Positions 1 to 26,939 of a DNA stretch of 26,939 nt are shown here, piece by piece. A model generated the notes under the pieces. The model searched no databases. It was not told the DNA's origin and was given only the letters and a program-made list of their open reading frames with translations. The DNA is taken from IMG/VR virus record IMGVR_UViG_3300044729_001739, positions 1 to 26,939 of that record. One strand, given 5' to 3'. Positions within the stretch are counted from its first letter, which is position 1. Every line of letters begins with the position of its first letter. Source of the stretch: a virus. The position numbers and the translations under genes were made by a program.

Positions 1-136
1 GCACATCCTGGATGAACAACGGCATAGTATGGACCCATAACCTTGCTTTGACGCAGTGTAGCAGCAGCCTTCATAATTAACTCAACGGTTAGTTCTGTTG
101 TGGTAGAACCGATGTCTGTTGAGAAACTATCGAAAG
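1..136. repeat. Terminal overlap of circular assembly (left copy)
   Basis: Bases 1-136 match 26804-26939 over their whole length with a single difference: C at 127 against T at 26930. Both copies fall inside the major capsid gene and joining them restores one open frame. The natural reading is a circularly permuted or circularised genome opened at an arbitrary point, not a physical terminal repeat with its own function. The mismatch changes capsid residue 126 from Ser (AGT) to Asn (AAT), so at least two variants probably contributed to the assembly. Confidence 0.93.
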
Positions 137-7309: not shown

Positions 7310-7515
7310 AAAATAATACCTTCTAATAGTTGTAGTCTGCGTTCATACTCTTTGTTGATCAGTTCTAAACTTTCAATTTTTTTTGATTGAAACTTTATAT
7401 AGTTTGATATTTTAATCTGTTGATCTAGGATATGTGCCGTGGTCTCAAGATTATGTCGAATAGTTTGTTCTATTCTCTCTATTCTTGTTAGCGGATCTTC
7501 TATATCATCGAGCAT
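7306..7515 (-). CDS. 69-residue coiled-coil protein
   Basis: Almost the whole protein is a predicted amphipathic helix: Ile/Leu positions recur every three to four residues from TRIERIEQTIRHNLETT to SLELINKEYERRLQLLEG. It has no membrane segment, so it is probably a soluble oligomeric protein. Its ATG has a strong GAGGAGAAG site and lies just inside the preceding gene. Possible roles include a regulator or an accessory factor of replication, neither of which the sequence itself shows. Confidence 0.65.
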   Translation of the reverse strand: MLDDIEDPLTRIERIEQTIRHNLETTAHILDQQIKISNYIKFQSKKIESLELINKEYERRLQLLEGIIL

Positions 7516-7826
7516 GGAACTTCTCCTCTTATAACATCATCTACAGGTAAGTTAAAGTTTCTTCTATTCTTACACCATAATTGTTGATGTCTAGTCATTA
7601 GCATTGAATTAGTCATAGTCCAGGGCTGTGTAGGATCTATGCGGCTTAAACATACACTATCTTTGTGGCGTCCTCTACGCATAAACATCTGTTCATCGGG
7701 AAAGAATAGGCAATAGTCTTCATAGGTCAATAACCATACTTCATTTCTAAACTTGGCCTGTGCTCTTTGTCTATGAAAAGCAGTTCTACGCTGTTTTTCC
7801 CAGCCCTGATATTTTTCTGGTCTCAT
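7500..7826 (-). CDS. HNH-like small phage protein (108 residues)
   Basis: The protein contains AKFRNEVWLLTYEDYCLFF, then FMRRGRHKDSVCLSRID and DPTQPWTMTNSMLMTRHQQL. This order (helix with RNE.W.LT.EDY, an R-G-R step, a D-P...W...N element and a final helix) matches from memory small phage proteins related to HNH or AP2-type homing endonuclease domains, where the D-P..W...N element corresponds to the metal-site loop. Classical HNH histidines are not obvious, so it may bind DNA without cutting. The downstream-shifted ATG at 7826 overlaps the previous stop by ATGA, while an in-frame ATG at 7856 also exists. The gene next to it has a similar central element. Confidence 0.5.
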   Translation of the reverse strand: MRPEKYQGWEKQRRTAFHRQRAQAKFRNEVWLLTYEDYCLFFPDEQMFMRRGRHKDSVCLSRIDPTQPWTMTNSMLMTRHQQLWCKNRRNFNLPVDDVIRGEVPCSMI

Positions 7827-8245
7827 CGGGGTCTTACCACTTCCTTGTCTGTCCATCCACGATTAATTCTACTGACTAATGTGGCATACTTTATGCCTGT
7901 CATCTCACTTACTTCAGTTATATGTCTAATCTTATTACGGTACTTGATAAAATATCTACCACAGGCTCTTAAGGTGATATTTTTAGATAAATCATATTTG
8001 ACATTACCTGGAACCCAGCCTAAACTGGGATCAACTATGCTGAACTTATATTCAGGACCAGGTTTATAACCTATATCATTTTCGACCCAACTGGCAAAAT
8101 ATTCGAAATCATCAAGTCCTTCTACAGGTCTATTAGGTTCATATTTGGGATTACGACTATTGAGAACTATTTGCCTAATGCGTAGCCAAGGACGCCATAG
8201 AGGATTTTGATATCTTGAAGCATATTTTCTTTTAATCTTTTTCAT
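7823..8245 (-). CDS. HNH-like protein with a C-terminal helix-turn-helix
   Basis: A 140-residue protein. The middle holds IGYKPGPEYKFSIVDP and GWVPGNVKY, the kind of loop seen in phage HNH-type endonucleases (D-P...G/W...GNV). The C-terminus has IRHITEVSEMTGIKYATLVS followed by RINRGWTDKEVV, a typical helix-turn-helix of the sort attached to homing endonucleases (S.ITG....T...R...GW). It may be a DNA-binding or nicking protein and could have arrived as a free-standing homing gene. The N-terminus is very basic (MKKIKRKYASRYQ). The ATG has AGGACAAGATT ahead of it. It is likely paralogous to the gene immediately downstream. Confidence 0.55.
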   Translation of the reverse strand: MKKIKRKYASRYQNPLWRPWLRIRQIVLNSRNPKYEPNRPVEGLDDFEYFASWVENDIGYKPGPEYKFSIVDPSLGWVPGNVKYDLSKNITLRACGRYFIKYRNKIRHITEVSEMTGIKYATLVSRINRGWTDKEVVRPR

Positions 8246-8712: not shown

Positions 8713-8889
8713 TTAGGTTATAATAATACCTTTTTCTTGACCTATTTTAACTTCCTGTTTGCTCAACCAGGCCACAAACACTTGGCAATCTCTACAATAA
8801 TATTTGTAGAAGTTATGTGCGGAGGACTGCTGAATTTCTACTTGATGTTCTCGATGTTTCACTAAAGGTGGGATAGGTTTCTTTTTCAT
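8713..8889 (-). CDS. Small putative zinc-binding protein (58 residues)
   Basis: A basic protein with HREH near residue 12 and YYCRDCQVFVAWLSKQE near residue 31. Together H..H and C..C could bind one zinc ion. Similar short proteins with a lone C..C followed by [FV]AWLSK occur in aquatic phage genomes as I remember them, with no established function. I use the ATG at 8889, which overlaps the preceding stop (ATGA). An in-frame ATG at 8922 lies deeper inside the upstream gene. Confidence 0.6.
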   Translation of the reverse strand: MKKKPIPPLVKHREHQVEIQQSSAHNFYKYYCRDCQVFVAWLSKQEVKIGQEKGIIIT

Positions 8890-9227
8890 TTTATTAGATC
8901 TATATGGCGAAAGGAATGCCATCTAAAATCTAGCATATCTCGCACAGGCACTATGAGAAAGACATCATTAAGGTCGAGTTCAATAAAACTTTCATAACCT
9001 AGATGCTGTTTAATTAAATCATAATCAATATTATGAAATCTATCCCATATCTCATCTTGCGTAGGAGGATTTTTGCCTTCTCTTTCTTCGGGACTCATCC
9101 AGGCATTCCAACTTAATAATTCTAAACTATTCCAACATATTTGACTGCCTTCGGGATGGTTCTTATCTAACCAGGTAAAGAATTGACTATATCCTAGATT
9201 CTTACCTATAGGTACTATATAATTCAT
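8886..9227 (-). CDS. 113-residue early protein of unknown function
   Basis: An acidic protein rich in Trp and Phe (SQFFTWLDKNHP, CWNSLELLSWNAWMSPEERE, FRWHSFRHIDLIK). Joined to the previous gene by ATGA. The aromatic-rich composition suggests a compact globular or protein-binding role. It is also compatible with a DNA mimic because of its acidic charge, but nothing specific supports that. No catalytic motif is recognised. Confidence 0.65.
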   Translation of the reverse strand: MNYIVPIGKNLGYSQFFTWLDKNHPEGSQICWNSLELLSWNAWMSPEEREGKNPPTQDEIWDRFHNIDYDLIKQHLGYESFIELDLNDVFLIVPVRDMLDFRWHSFRHIDLIK

Positions 9228-9875: not shown

Positions 9876-9894
9876 AATTTATCTCCTTAAGTTT

Positions 9895-9922
9895 ATTATA
9901 CAGCAGTTAGGAATTTAGTCAA
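9895..9922 (-). promoter_or_regulatory. Sigma70-type early promoter
   Basis: On the minus strand TTGACT (9917-9922), 16-base spacer, TATAAT (9895-9900). Predicted start near 9888, with the first gene starting at 9875 after AAGGAGAT. It lacks the ACTGCGACAGAC element found at the two later promoters, so it could be active at once on infection. It lies beside the AT-rich repeats at 9941-10060. Confidence 0.85.
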
Positions 9923-9940
9923 GCATTTCGGTAAAATTAA

Positions 9941-10060
9941 AAAACCTTACAACATATATAAAAAATAAAAAAATAAAACACTTATATATAACCTTCTTAC
10001 TTTCGAAAAACCTTACAACATATATAAAAAATAAAATAATAAAAACACTTATATATAACC
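9941..10060. repeat. Tandem AT-rich direct repeat, candidate replication origin
   Basis: Two copies (9941-9993 and 10007-10060, 66 bases apart) of a 53-54 base unit: AAAACCTTACAACATATATA at the left, A-rich middle (AAAAATAAAA), then CTTATATATAACC. They differ only in the A-rich middle. They fill the only AT-extreme gap in the genome, between the polymerase-like gene and the early promoter. Iteron-like repeats beside an easily melted tract next to a replication gene suggest an origin. A regulatory or terminator role is the alternative. Confidence 0.6.
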
Positions 10061-10065
10061 CTACT

Positions 10066-11124
10066 CTACATATCTCTATCTTGTTCTATCTTACTCCACG
10101 AGAACTTGACCTCATACCCCGTTTGATTTCGAACTACATATTCTAACTCATTAGGAGTAAAGAACACATCACTTCGAAATCCATCGTGTTCGAGAAATAC
10201 TCTCGCAGATCTCGTATTCATATATCTCCTCACAGATTTCATTACTTCACCCTCTAACCTCTTATAGTAATCAGTTCTATCACGACCAGTTAGTCTCCGT
10301 TTTCTCCTCACACCCTGTGAGGTATAGTAATATGATCTCTCTATGTCCAGACCTATGACCTGCCATAATTTTCGAATATCCTTAATGAGATATTGAATGA
10401 ATTCATTTAATTTCAATTGACGCATTATATAATGATTATTATTGATTATGCGTAAGATTTTATTATCCCTGTTATGAGAAAGGGGAGCACTCATAATGAT
10501 GGCATTCAATACGGATTTAACGGATTTAGAACCTAAATTAAATTCTACACATAATTGATCTCGAACTGATTGCTTGTGCTCAATAAGATATTCTAAATAG
10601 CACAATTTTGCGGCGGCGGATTTCAGTTTATAATATCTTTGTAGTAGCAGTGTAGGGGCACAACTTTCGATGTCATAATCATAACAATAACCTCTGCGGC
10701 TCCACTCAATAATTTTATCTTCACGAGGTATATATTGTAGTCCGTTATATAGTCGAGAATCAGAACCTAGATTATATTCGAACTGCCCTAATGCAATCTG
10801 CTGCTCTTGTTCTTGAAATCTCTGCTCAATTCGTAATTTTTTTAATTCAATTGAGGGAAGACCTATGCGTTCTGCTATTCGATTGAGGTGTAGAGTATTA
10901 ACACTATATTTCTTACAACTATGTCCTACTTCATATCTGTCATTAACGGTTATTAACAGCATATTTTTAAGATAGCGTCCTACATCACTATTGCCGAAAA
11001 TTCGTCTTATTTGACTGCTATGAATTGATCGAGGTTCCAGTCCGATAGTATCTCGTAGATACTCAATTATCTTTCGTGTTCTTCGTTGTGTGCTAGCATT
11101 TGTCCAGCAAGGTTTATAAGTCAT
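10066..11124 (-). CDS. Putative compact polymerase related to the PolA/T7-RNAP superfamily (TV-Pol-like)
   Basis: A 352-residue protein, the largest early gene and the only replication candidate. Three elements occur in the order and spacing of family A palms. YDYDIESCAPTLL at 148-160 looks like motif A, with Asp149/Asp151. SKSVKSVLNAIIMSAPL at 199-215 looks like motif B (K...N....G-like). LEHDGFRSD at 311-319 looks like motif C (HD plus acidic residue), followed by a strand ending VKFSW as in PolA proteins. YYKRLEGEVMKSV at 286-298 resembles the Q/EG helix before motif C. TV-Pols, described in transposons and viruses, are similarly degenerate relatives of PolA. The N-terminal 120 residues are helical and basic. 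Good ribosome site (AAGGAG). This is motif-level inference. An alternative is an unrelated DNA-binding initiator. Confidence 0.5.
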   Translation of the reverse strand: MTYKPCWTNASTQRRTRKIIEYLRDTIGLEPRSIHSSQIRRIFGNSDVGRYLKNMLLITVNDRYEVGHSCKKYSVNTLHLNRIAERIGLPSIELKKLRIEQRFQEQEQQIALGQFEYNLGSDSRLYNGLQYIPREDKIIEWSRRGYCYDYDIESCAPTLLLQRYYKLKSAAAKLCYLEYLIEHKQSVRDQLCVEFNLGSKSVKSVLNAIIMSAPLSHNRDNKILRIINNNHYIMRQLKLNEFIQYLIKDIRKLWQVIGLDIERSYYYTSQGVRRKRRLTGRDRTDYYKRLEGEVMKSVRRYMNTRSARVFLEHDGFRSDVFFTPNELEYVVRNQTGYEVKFSWSKIEQDRDM

Positions 11125-11160: not shown

Positions 11161-11188
11161 AAAAGAGAACCCCCGATTTCTCGGGGGG
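11161..11188 (-). terminator. Rho-independent terminator at the end of the late operon
   Basis: On the minus strand CCCCCGA, loop GAAA, TCGGGGG, then TTCTCTTTT: a perfect 7-bp GC stem closed by a stable tetraloop with a U-rich tail. It separates the late operon (ending at 11355) from the polymerase-like gene (starting at 11124). I see no convincing sigma70 promoter for that gene downstream, so it may rely on read-through. Confidence 0.9.
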
Positions 11189-12055: not shown

Positions 12056-13156
12056 TCATCTCGTAAAATTGGGATAGATAGTAGGATATCTAGCACTAGA
12101 TACCGTTGAGGTCATTGCTCCCATATTGACCCAAGTGGAGGTAGTGGCAGGATCACGCCTAAAATAGGTAGTATTCCCGCTAAAATGAGCACTAACTACA
12201 AATCTACCATCACTACTACAATCTATACCATATCCATCTGGACCAGCAGGCACCGTAGCAGGATTGGCTGCTTTCATAAATGTATCACCTGAACGCAGAT
12301 AAAAATGAACATAGGGAGAATTTGTTCCATTACATACCAAATATTCACTATTAGTTCCTCCCCAGGCCACACCATAAACATTACTGGGAGGCTGTGTAGG
12401 ATCTACACTGATTTTGGTAAATGTGCCAGTAGAATTGCGATTAAAGATTGCTAATTTTCTTGTAGTAGTGGGTCCTCCACCTATGGCTATACTAGTTCCA
12501 CTATTATTCCAAGCAACATCTTCACATCTATTATTAGGATGATTTCCTTCTAATGGATTAACAATTTTAGTAAATGTTTTGGTTGATTCATCGAATGTAT
12601 AGGCAAGAAAATATGGAGCACTACTCATCACCATACAGAGAACATCACCTTGCGGACTCCAACTACATTTTGTCATTGAAATAGTTGCTGTTATTGCAGC
12701 AGTGAAACTGGCTGTGTTTGTGACCGTAGTAAATGTATCCCCGTTTCTTTCCCATACAACACATTGTCCTAAATTATTATTTGCATCGAATACGCCTGCA
12801 ATATATTTTCCACTAGGATGCCAACTAATTCCTTGACAAGCCTTATTAGGAATATGACCTGCTCCAAAATCAGGTAATTTAGTATAACCATTTCCTATTT
12901 TGTTAAAAAAGAATACATAGGGACTAGCAGAATAGGCCACCGCCAAGGTAGTGCCGTTAGGGTCGAATCTAAAAGCATTTCCAGTGCCGGAAGTAGGAAA
13001 TCCCGTACTGGTTGTTAAATTATTAACAGCAGTGAAAGTACCTACTTCTCTTGTTTCAATATCTACAATTTCTACTCTTGGATTTGTTGCGGCTCTACCT
13101 TGGCTCCACATATATTGGCCAATCATTCGGCCCATTTGATTCTGATTAAACAACAT
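12056..13156 (-). CDS. Beta-propeller (WD40-like) virion protein
   Basis: A 366-residue protein built of about six to seven repeats. Each has a W or F.p.G..iA type strand (GISWHPSGKYIAG, KCSWSPQGDVLCM, DVAWNNSGTSIAIG, GVAWGGTNSEYLV, GIDCSSDGRFVVS) followed by a second strand with an aromatic pair before a G-D/N-T-F-TK turn (NGDTFTTV, ESTKTFTKI). This is the signature of a propeller of WD40 type. The N-terminus ([20 protein letters not shown]) is an amphipathic lead that may dock to the fibre. Its ATG overlaps the stop of the collagen-like fibre gene (TAATG), so it is probably a fibre-associated receptor-binding or carbohydrate-binding protein. A cytoplasmic role is unlikely in this operon. 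Confidence 0.75.
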   Translation of the reverse strand: MLFNQNQMGRMIGQYMWSQGRAATNPRVEIVDIETREVGTFTAVNNLTTSTGFPTSGTGNAFRFDPNGTTLAVAYSASPYVFFFNKIGNGYTKLPDFGAGHIPNKACQGISWHPSGKYIAGVFDANNNLGQCVVWERNGDTFTTVTNTASFTAAITATISMTKCSWSPQGDVLCMVMSSAPYFLAYTFDESTKTFTKIVNPLEGNHPNNRCEDVAWNNSGTSIAIGGGPTTTRKLAIFNRNSTGTFTKISVDPTQPPSNVYGVAWGGTNSEYLVCNGTNSPYVHFYLRSGDTFMKAANPATVPAGPDGYGIDCSSDGRFVVSAHFSGNTTYFRRDPATTSTWVNMGAMTSTVSSARYPTIYPNFTR

Positions 13157-26436: not shown

Positions 26437-26939
26437 TTAATCTAAATCTGTTTCCGCAGTTATCTTAACACCGTGAGTGCTCTGTAGAACACTGGCACCC
26501 ATAACTGCCACAACACTCATATCTGTAGCACGATTCTGTGGTAGATATAGTGTGTTTAGAGTTAGACCGCCACGCTCTGCGATACCCACTGCTGTAGGTG
26601 CGAATACGCCGTTAATGAACGCAGCACTGGCTGGATCGTCTGTGCGAGCCTTGACCAATGGTGATTCAATTACGGTCACTCCACCGATATTTCCCAGTAC
26701 ACCAGTTAGCAGAAGATTATTACCACCGGCACTTAAAGCAGGAACATTTGTTGAGGCTCCGCTGTATAGTGTTTGAACGGTCATCTGCTTCTTGATATAA
26801 TAGGCACATCCTGGATGAACAACGGCATAGTATGGACCCATAACCTTGCTTTGACGCAGTGTAGCAGCAGCCTTCATAATTAACTCAACGGTTAGTTCTG
26901 TTGTGGTAGAACCGATGTCTGTTGAGAAATTATCGAAAG
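26437..26939 (-). CDS. Major capsid protein, C-terminal part (continues at window start)
   Basis: The gene enters the window from its other end; bases 26804-26939 duplicate 1-136. The C-terminal part runs from LTVELIMKAAATLRQSKVMG through HPGCAYYIKKQMTV and ITGVLGNIGGVTVIESPLV-type strands to THGVKITAETDLD and the stop at 26437. The middle helix with KAAATLRQ, a G-P-Y-Y-A-V-VHPG strand and the final beta strands suit the A-domain of HK97-fold capsids. The overlapping part carries Asn126 where the left copy has Ser. Confidence 0.88.
   Translation of the reverse strand, partial: FDNFSTDIGSTTTELTVELIMKAAATLRQSKVMGPYYAVVHPGCAYYIKKQMTVQTLYSGASTNVPALSAGGNNLLLTGVLGNIGGVTVIESPLVKARTDDPASAAFINGVFAPTAVGIAERGGLTLNTLYLPQNRATDMSVVAVMGASVLQSTHGVKITAETDLD
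26804..26939. repeat. Terminal overlap of circular assembly (right copy)
   Basis: Matches 1-136 with one mismatch (T at 26930 against C at 127). It shows that the window is a closed circle of about 26,803 bp and should be read across the ends when annotating the capsid gene. Confidence 0.93.

Follow-up and report, generated by a model that had tools for sequence, protein, structure and literature searches.

The gene considered here lies in IMG/VR record IMGVR_UViG_3300044729_001739, a virus contig of 26,939 nt that was analysed in its entirety and is referred to below as the window. The two ends of the window overlap within a capsid gene, such that it closes as a circle; it is, therefore, a whole genome, circular and some 26.8 kb in length. 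The open reading frame in question (Table 1) has an ATG start and is real, as the first-pass annotation had supposed in proposing, from the sequence alone, that it encodes a compact polymerase. It is followed directly by the most AT-rich segment of the genome, which harbours a pair of repeats and a promoter-like site, whereas just upstream of the gene there is a terminator-like GC-rich hairpin with a T-rich tail (positions 11170–11187, minus strand). Elsewhere in the window, two small HNH-endonuclease-like proteins are encoded on the minus strand (7500–7856 and 7823–8245; their families recur, with members in 49 and 22 fetched loci, respectively), and a β-propeller-like (WD40-type) protein, assigned from gene order and sequence, lies among the tail genes (12056–13156, minus strand).

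Table 1. Features of the window discussed in the text (positions are those of the 26,939-nt window)
Feature	Position	Strand	Basis or remark
Compact family-A (TV-Pol-like) polymerase, 352 aa	10066..11124	-	ORF, family alignment, fold, profile matches
N-terminal winged-helix-like domain, residues 1-90, putative origin-binding	10855..11124	-	AlphaFold2 model of domain alone
Catalytic palm/fingers domain, residues 113-347	10084..10788	-	AlphaFold2 model, PDB fold matches, profile match
R124-L-x-x-x-L-Q130, counterpart of TGRLSS..PNLQN	10735..10755	-	R124, Q130 in 73/73
Motif A, Y150-D151-I152-E-S-C-A156-P157	10654..10677	-	73-member alignment
R188, invariant basic residue, start of fingers	10561..10563	-	73/73
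Motif B, K203-x-x-x-N207	10504..10518	-	K203 in 73/73; aligned to K522-xxx-Y526 of T7 DNA polymerase
Motif C, H313-D314-G315	10180..10188	-	73/73
Most AT-rich genome segment, candidate origin and/or operator	9893..10065	.	20% GC vs 39.6%; directly downstream of polymerase gene
AT-rich repeat copy 1	10006..10062	-	ends 3 nt from stop codon
AT-rich repeat copy 2	9940..9993	-	66 nt beyond copy 1
Promoter-like TTGACT-16-TATAAT (11/12)	9895..9922	-	consensus match only; faces small-gene cluster
Small H..H/C..C protein	8713..8922	-	relatives adjoin the polymerase gene in roughly one-third of related loci
Terminal overlap	1..136 with 26804-26939	.	135/136 identical, inside capsid gene

Used as a single query, the window protein matched no Pfam family and no PDB sequence and gave no significant PHROG match, and a tblastn search of 50,697 phage records returned nothing. 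Its family was reached through contigs that share a terminase with the window: these provided four polymerase sequences, including that of the window itself, to which the others are 27–32% identical, and from an alignment of the four the family grew to 41, and later to over 80, uncultured viral loci, plus four bacterial genome contigs. The resulting family profile matches no PDB sequence, and none of the 73 family members is matched by Pfam. Short, weak polymerase matches in scaffold genes were rejected as coiled-coil noise. One family member (L147:357–1565) is interrupted by an in-frame stop, which leaves it in two frames. Others reside in bacterial chromosomes, namely those of Janthinobacterium (L123:9594–10664) and Caballeronia (L124:11079–12062); by eye, both have integrase-like genes nearby and no obvious capsid genes, and they are possibly small integrated elements.

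The motifs A, B and C claimed for the protein are present in that order, and they are no chance occurrence: their catalytic residues do not vary among the 73 aligned relatives. The residues conserved in every one of these sequences are Arg124, Gln130, Tyr150, Asp151, Ile152, Arg188, Lys203, Tyr287, Glu291, His313, Asp314 and Gly315. Two details of the original description were not upheld: Asp149, the first aspartate of the supposed D-x-D, is Asp in only 16 of the 73 relatives, which leaves Asp151 as the motif-A aspartate, and the C-terminal tryptophan is not conserved. By contrast, an informative element had been overlooked, namely the S-x-RLxxPLQ context of Arg124 and Gln130. The corresponding family-A motif reads TGRLSS..PNLQN; plasmid relatives of the window protein read SGRLY..LQN, and one of them, with SGRLYT..SLQN, forms a bridge between the two. 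Arg124 corresponds to the template/primer-contacting arginine that superfamily A carries in a hairpin ahead of the palm, and the other hallmarks of the superfamily are also in evidence: a palm with the motif-A and motif-C aspartates in RRM-like order, and a fingers insert with the motif-B lysine.

AlphaFold2, supplied with the family alignment, returned a family-A-type palm with a pLDDT of 92. In this model, the strand carrying Asp151 (residues 148–152) is followed by the helical fingers insert, whose helices span residues 155–260 between the palm strands, then by a helix (residues 280–304) and a hairpin (residues 309–312 and 315–318) with Asp314 of the HDG motif at its turn, and finally by a helix (residues 324–335) and a strand (residues 341–345). 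The thumb region is represented only by helices 92–105 and 107–112, the TV-Pol thumb being two antiparallel helices. This order of elements would place Asp151 and Asp314 in one pocket. Foldseek matched the model to KlenTaq, Aquifex Pol I, T7 DNA polymerase, Pol theta, and the human and yeast mitochondrial RNA polymerases (best E-value 2.8e-4); the TM-scores are moderate (0.3–0.46), as expected for a protein much smaller than the enzymes matched. Among viral proteins, the fold matches extend to an E-value of 1.4e-9 and include TV-Pol-like replication proteins of virophages and phages. The structure prediction proposed in the first-pass annotation as a check has, therefore, found a palm, with matches to family-A polymerases rather than to an unrelated family, and we regard the assignment of fold and family to superfamily A as near certain.

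Within the superfamily, the suggestion of a resemblance to the divergent TV-Pol group, a family defined by Iyer, Abhiman and Aravind in 2008 and predicted to have both primase and polymerase activity (PMC2579912), stands in respect of fold matches, profile matches and motifs, but not in respect of the RxxxK fingers motif. In hhalign comparisons, the family aligns to a protein of Microcystis phage LMM01 with an E-value of 4e-4 and with all three motifs in register, the unrelated T7 gp4 giving 0.2; judging from its position and motifs, rather than from an accession, the LMM01 protein is likely the TV-Pol named in PMC2579912. Alignments to D29 PolA, T7 RNA polymerase and the T7 primase-helicase were at chance, and T7 DNA polymerase aligned weakly, at motif B only. 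In common with TV-Pols, the family has a minimal, nuclease-free palm/fingers core of superfamily A, found in small viruses and mobile elements, with a template-strand arginine, two metal-binding aspartates and HDG; indeed, no other domain was found in the 352 residues, and the genes occur in records of 20–40 kb and plasmids of 7–11 kb. It departs from them in its length (350 residues as against 400–600), in an N-terminal domain that is winged-helix-like rather than all-helical, in having no D5 helicase fused or nearby (common, although not universal, in TV-Pols), and in the presence of a DNA element within the gene and next to it. Moreover, position 199, four residues before Lys203, is variable, the invariant Arg188 lies 15 residues upstream of that lysine, and no fingers aspartate is invariant in the family alignment, where TV-Pols have a conserved one. 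With RxxxK absent, we place the family on a TV-Pol-like branch of superfamily A rather than among TV-Pols in the strict published sense.

The family also differs from classical PolA, in that there is no DNA_pol_A match (PF00476, 0 of 50 related records) and neither the Glu nor the Phe of the ribose gate. Five residues after the motif-A aspartate, where Pol I and CCPol have Glu, 70 of the 73 relatives have Ala (Ala156); four after the motif-B lysine, where DNA polymerases have Phe or Tyr, 61 of the 73 have Asn (Asn207). Both positions were set by counting from the catalytic residues, together with the T7 DNA polymerase alignment. As both ribose-discriminating residues are replaced, we reason that the enzyme may accept NTPs. 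CCPol, which is described in PMC7581432 as the only TV-Pol whose activity had been measured, retains the counterparts of E710 and F762 and makes DNA primers (PMC7581432). The CCPol-MP system, comprising the PolA-SSB primases of SCCmec-like elements (PMC7581432, PMC10061031), resembles the present family in being a mobile-element family-A core with a proposed primase role; it differs at the positions of Ala156 and Asn207, in its MP/SSB partner and Cch helicase, for neither of which a counterpart was recognized here (SSB in 0 of 48 related records, and no conserved helicase), and in that a small Cys/His protein is a frequent neighbour of the genes described here.

This small protein follows the pattern H..[HC] and C..[CH], then W[LIV]..., with further examples at L087:7808–8008 and L126:4721–4960. 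It is encoded no more than about 2 kb from the polymerase gene, and mostly right beside it, in 30 of 89 polymerase loci; it is present in two of 78 terminase-centred loci, an unfair control for that figure. It could be a zinc-binding partner of the polymerase.

A link outside the phages is provided by Polaromonas plasmids. The profile matches a protein of pW9NP1 over 222 columns with an E-value of 2.8e-16. The plasmids share the catalytic core by profile, but their proteins are longer, with a different N-terminal part, and the initiator is a separate gene: in pW9NP1, 11 bp separate the palm gene from a RepA_C replication initiator that follows it. Two such TV-Pol-like palm proteins were located, of 538 aa in pW9NP1 (L267, 37–1653) and 501 aa in pH8NP1 (L268, 6095–7600); they are annotated as hypothetical or Clp-N, and the label of Clp protease N-terminal domain is probably wrong.

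When residues 1–90 of the window protein were modelled alone, the pLDDT was 91.5, and the elements followed the order of a winged helix: helices 10–27, 36–43 and 47–56, then strands 57–61 and 72–75. Fold matches in the PDB are weak and not significant (best E-value 0.2), although mostly to winged-helix proteins; the assignment is, therefore, one of topology, and the domain is probably DNA-binding. That the plasmid palm adjoins a separate initiator, while the phage palm is fused to a DNA-binding-like domain, provides circumstantial support for an initiator role.

The gene content of the phages is informative in this regard. Pfam matches for the window, and Pfam and PHROG matches for three near-complete relatives, include structural, packaging, nuclease and modification genes among the first 25 families of each scan; a weak single match may lie beyond these. 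The first-pass annotation is right that the window shows no further polymerase, helicase or primase: none could be recognized among the matches listed from Pfam and the other scans, and because the genome is complete, the absence of other replication genes applies to all of it and not to a fragment. Gene-content counts were made over up to 50 related records, most of 20–40 kb. The window and nearly all of some 47 related records are without DnaB, D5, AAA_25, SSB and PolA: D5_N (PF08706) is found in 0 of 48, DnaB_C in two of 50 and AAA_25 in two of 48, these being the same two outlying records, and ResIII is above cut-off in one. At least 10 of 20 related records tested have overlapping ends and are, therefore, near-complete, at 28–35 kb. 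The DnaB-type helicases belong to L120 and L145 (records G049 and G047), of which one has a highly divergent family member whose polymerase is 443 aa long, while the other is a 101-kb genome; these are possible intermediates to classical systems. On the grounds of gene content and plasmid context, it is highly probable that the polymerase has a role in replication.

The AT-rich repeats that had been reported beside the gene are real: there are two 39-nt copies, 97% identical and 66 nt apart, in the lowest-GC stretch of the genome, and their 20-nt core occurs exactly twice in the genome as against 0.01 expected. An Rfam search gave no match, and GC skew, with no switch at the repeats, was uninformative. 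Repeats also accompany the gene in other members of the family, and this paired element, in and just after the polymerase gene, is new in this analysis. In 26 of 74 non-redundant loci, an element of 20–77 nt with the core CCCTAKTGTA has one copy in the linker, at about codon 100–140 and, hence, at the junction of the N-terminal and palm domains, and one that coincides with the stop codon or follows it closely; the internal copy is present in 31 of the 74. The aligned copies have the common core ATACCCTAKTGTA..ACAAGTC, and many cores are near-palindromic, for example TGTANTACA. In a model-free search, the repeats of 33 of 77 loci beat all 40 shuffles, and scores of at least 19 were reached in 30 of 76 polymerase genes as against three of 158 control genes of similar length from the same contigs. 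A weight matrix, trained on the same copies and, hence, partly circular, recovers both copies in the 26 loci and at 17 bits or more found zero matches outside the linker and stop sites in 1.8 Mb on both strands. No repeat pair could be detected in about half of the relatives.

Two different reading frames run through the internal copy (27 and four loci), implying that the element is conserved as DNA; accordingly, YPSVLQV was rejected as a protein motif, as it also appears in the second frame and after the stop codon. Copies are near-identical within a genome and different between genomes, as would be expected either of sites coevolving with a binding protein or of gene conversion. In one relative (L133; positions 8375, 9217 and 9333), a 77-nt stretch of linker-coding DNA is perfectly duplicated after the polymerase gene, and there is a third copy of the core. 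The CCCTAKTGTA element is not found in the window, which has only the downstream copies of an unrelated AT-rich sequence; likewise, the locus of its closest relative, L126, has two downstream copies, 70 nt apart. The position of the repeats is, then, common to the window and its relatives, whereas their sequence is different.

The reading that we favour, to which we give a probability of roughly 0.55, is that the protein combines an origin-binding initiator with a family-A primase/polymerase and acts at these repeats, with host machinery following. The N-terminal domain would bind the repeats in or beside its own gene (in the window, those just past the stop codon) and the neighbouring AT-rich DNA would open; the palm/fingers domain would then lay down a primer, possibly of RNA, or a short DNA strand, after which host helicase, clamp and polymerase III would take over. 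Of the two options raised in the first-pass annotation, a self-contained enzyme or a primase-like one working with host helicases, the latter fits the gene content. Counting against the initiator reading are those relatives in which no repeat pair was detected, the restriction of the window to downstream copies of its own AT-rich sequence, the non-significance of the winged-helix fold matches, the lack of a GC-skew switch at the repeats and the fact that no ssDNA-binding or helicase-recruiting partner was identified.

A full replicative DNA polymerase, performing strand displacement, making its own primers and needing little help from the host, would also account for the sole polymerase of a complete genome and for its conservation in phages without DnaB and SSB, and would fit the dual activity predicted for TV-Pols (PMC2579912). 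We consider this rather unlikely, however, as the enzyme has short fingers, a thumb reduced to some 20 residues and no exonuclease, the replacements at Ala156 and Asn207 point away from a faithful DNA polymerase, and phages of this size commonly rely on the host replisome. It is also unlikely that the enzyme is a catalytically degenerate or non-replicative one, with a function in repair, defence or tailing; indeed, we rate this far lower, because, despite its great divergence from characterized enzymes, the catalytic residues are all invariant in 73 sequences and the gene is the sole candidate for replication in complete genomes. Similarly, we see only a slim chance that the protein is a small relative of the single-subunit RNA polymerase of T7, transcribing phage genes with the repeats as its promoters. 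The small residue at the motif-A ribose gate is as in RNA polymerases, and the mitochondrial enzymes of human and yeast are among the fold matches, but T7 RNA polymerase is more than twice as large, and the hhalign alignment of the protein to it is at chance. Moreover, the element occurs only in or beside the polymerase gene and never ahead of others; its absence elsewhere argues against phage promoters, and the idea of promoters for a phage RNA polymerase was rejected.

The repeats themselves could be interpreted differently. Those of the window adjoin a promoter-like site and, thus, could be operators, the N-terminal domain repressing or activating transcription near its own gene while the polymerase acts elsewhere; the strength of the promoter-like match directly beyond the repeats and the many near-palindromic cores, as expected for a dimeric regulator, are in keeping with this. 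In the relatives, however, one copy is deep in coding sequence, at the domain junction and about 760–860 nt from the other, and a plain operator need not sit there; furthermore, operator and origin functions can coexist. We therefore judge operators in place of an origin to be improbable. More improbable by far is a mobile polymerase cassette, in which the palm segment, bounded by direct repeats, moves between genes for the N-terminal domain: two copies do bracket the catalytic domain, with almost no difference between them inside any one genome but divergence from one genome to the next, yet the search turned up no N-domain gene without the palm segment, and all members carry the palm domain at the same position.

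For the favoured initiator, there are partial precedents. The lambda origin lies in the middle of gene O (PMC3985674), and O is, likewise, an initiator whose binding repeats sit within its own gene; unlike the present protein, O has no polymerase domain and acts via lambda P and DnaB, and its four repeats are clustered, whereas the pair here is divided between the interior and the end of the gene. A possible working model is ColE2 Rep (PMC4538821), which binds the origin and makes a primer for the host polymerase, albeit with an archaeo-eukaryotic-primase fold instead of that of superfamily A. Tentatively, and with rather less confidence than in the initiator itself, we propose that the family may represent a third primase-initiator architecture: some 350 residues, comprising an origin-recognizing winged-helix-like domain and a family-A palm that, having lost both ribose-excluding residues, would make RNA primers, with two origin sites that bracket its own catalytic domain, would constitute the entire phage-encoded replication apparatus of widespread phages of 27–36 kb.

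Many small phage genomes have no recognizable replication gene and have been assumed to take everything from the host; in one widespread uncultured group, the replication gene is simply too divergent to be recognized. The family is among the smallest of natural family-A polymerases and suggests a connection, which can be put to the test, of TV-Pols with phages and plasmid replication modules. Moreover, the conserved DNA element makes the question of the origin directly testable, and it may be that one protein both finds the origin and starts replication.
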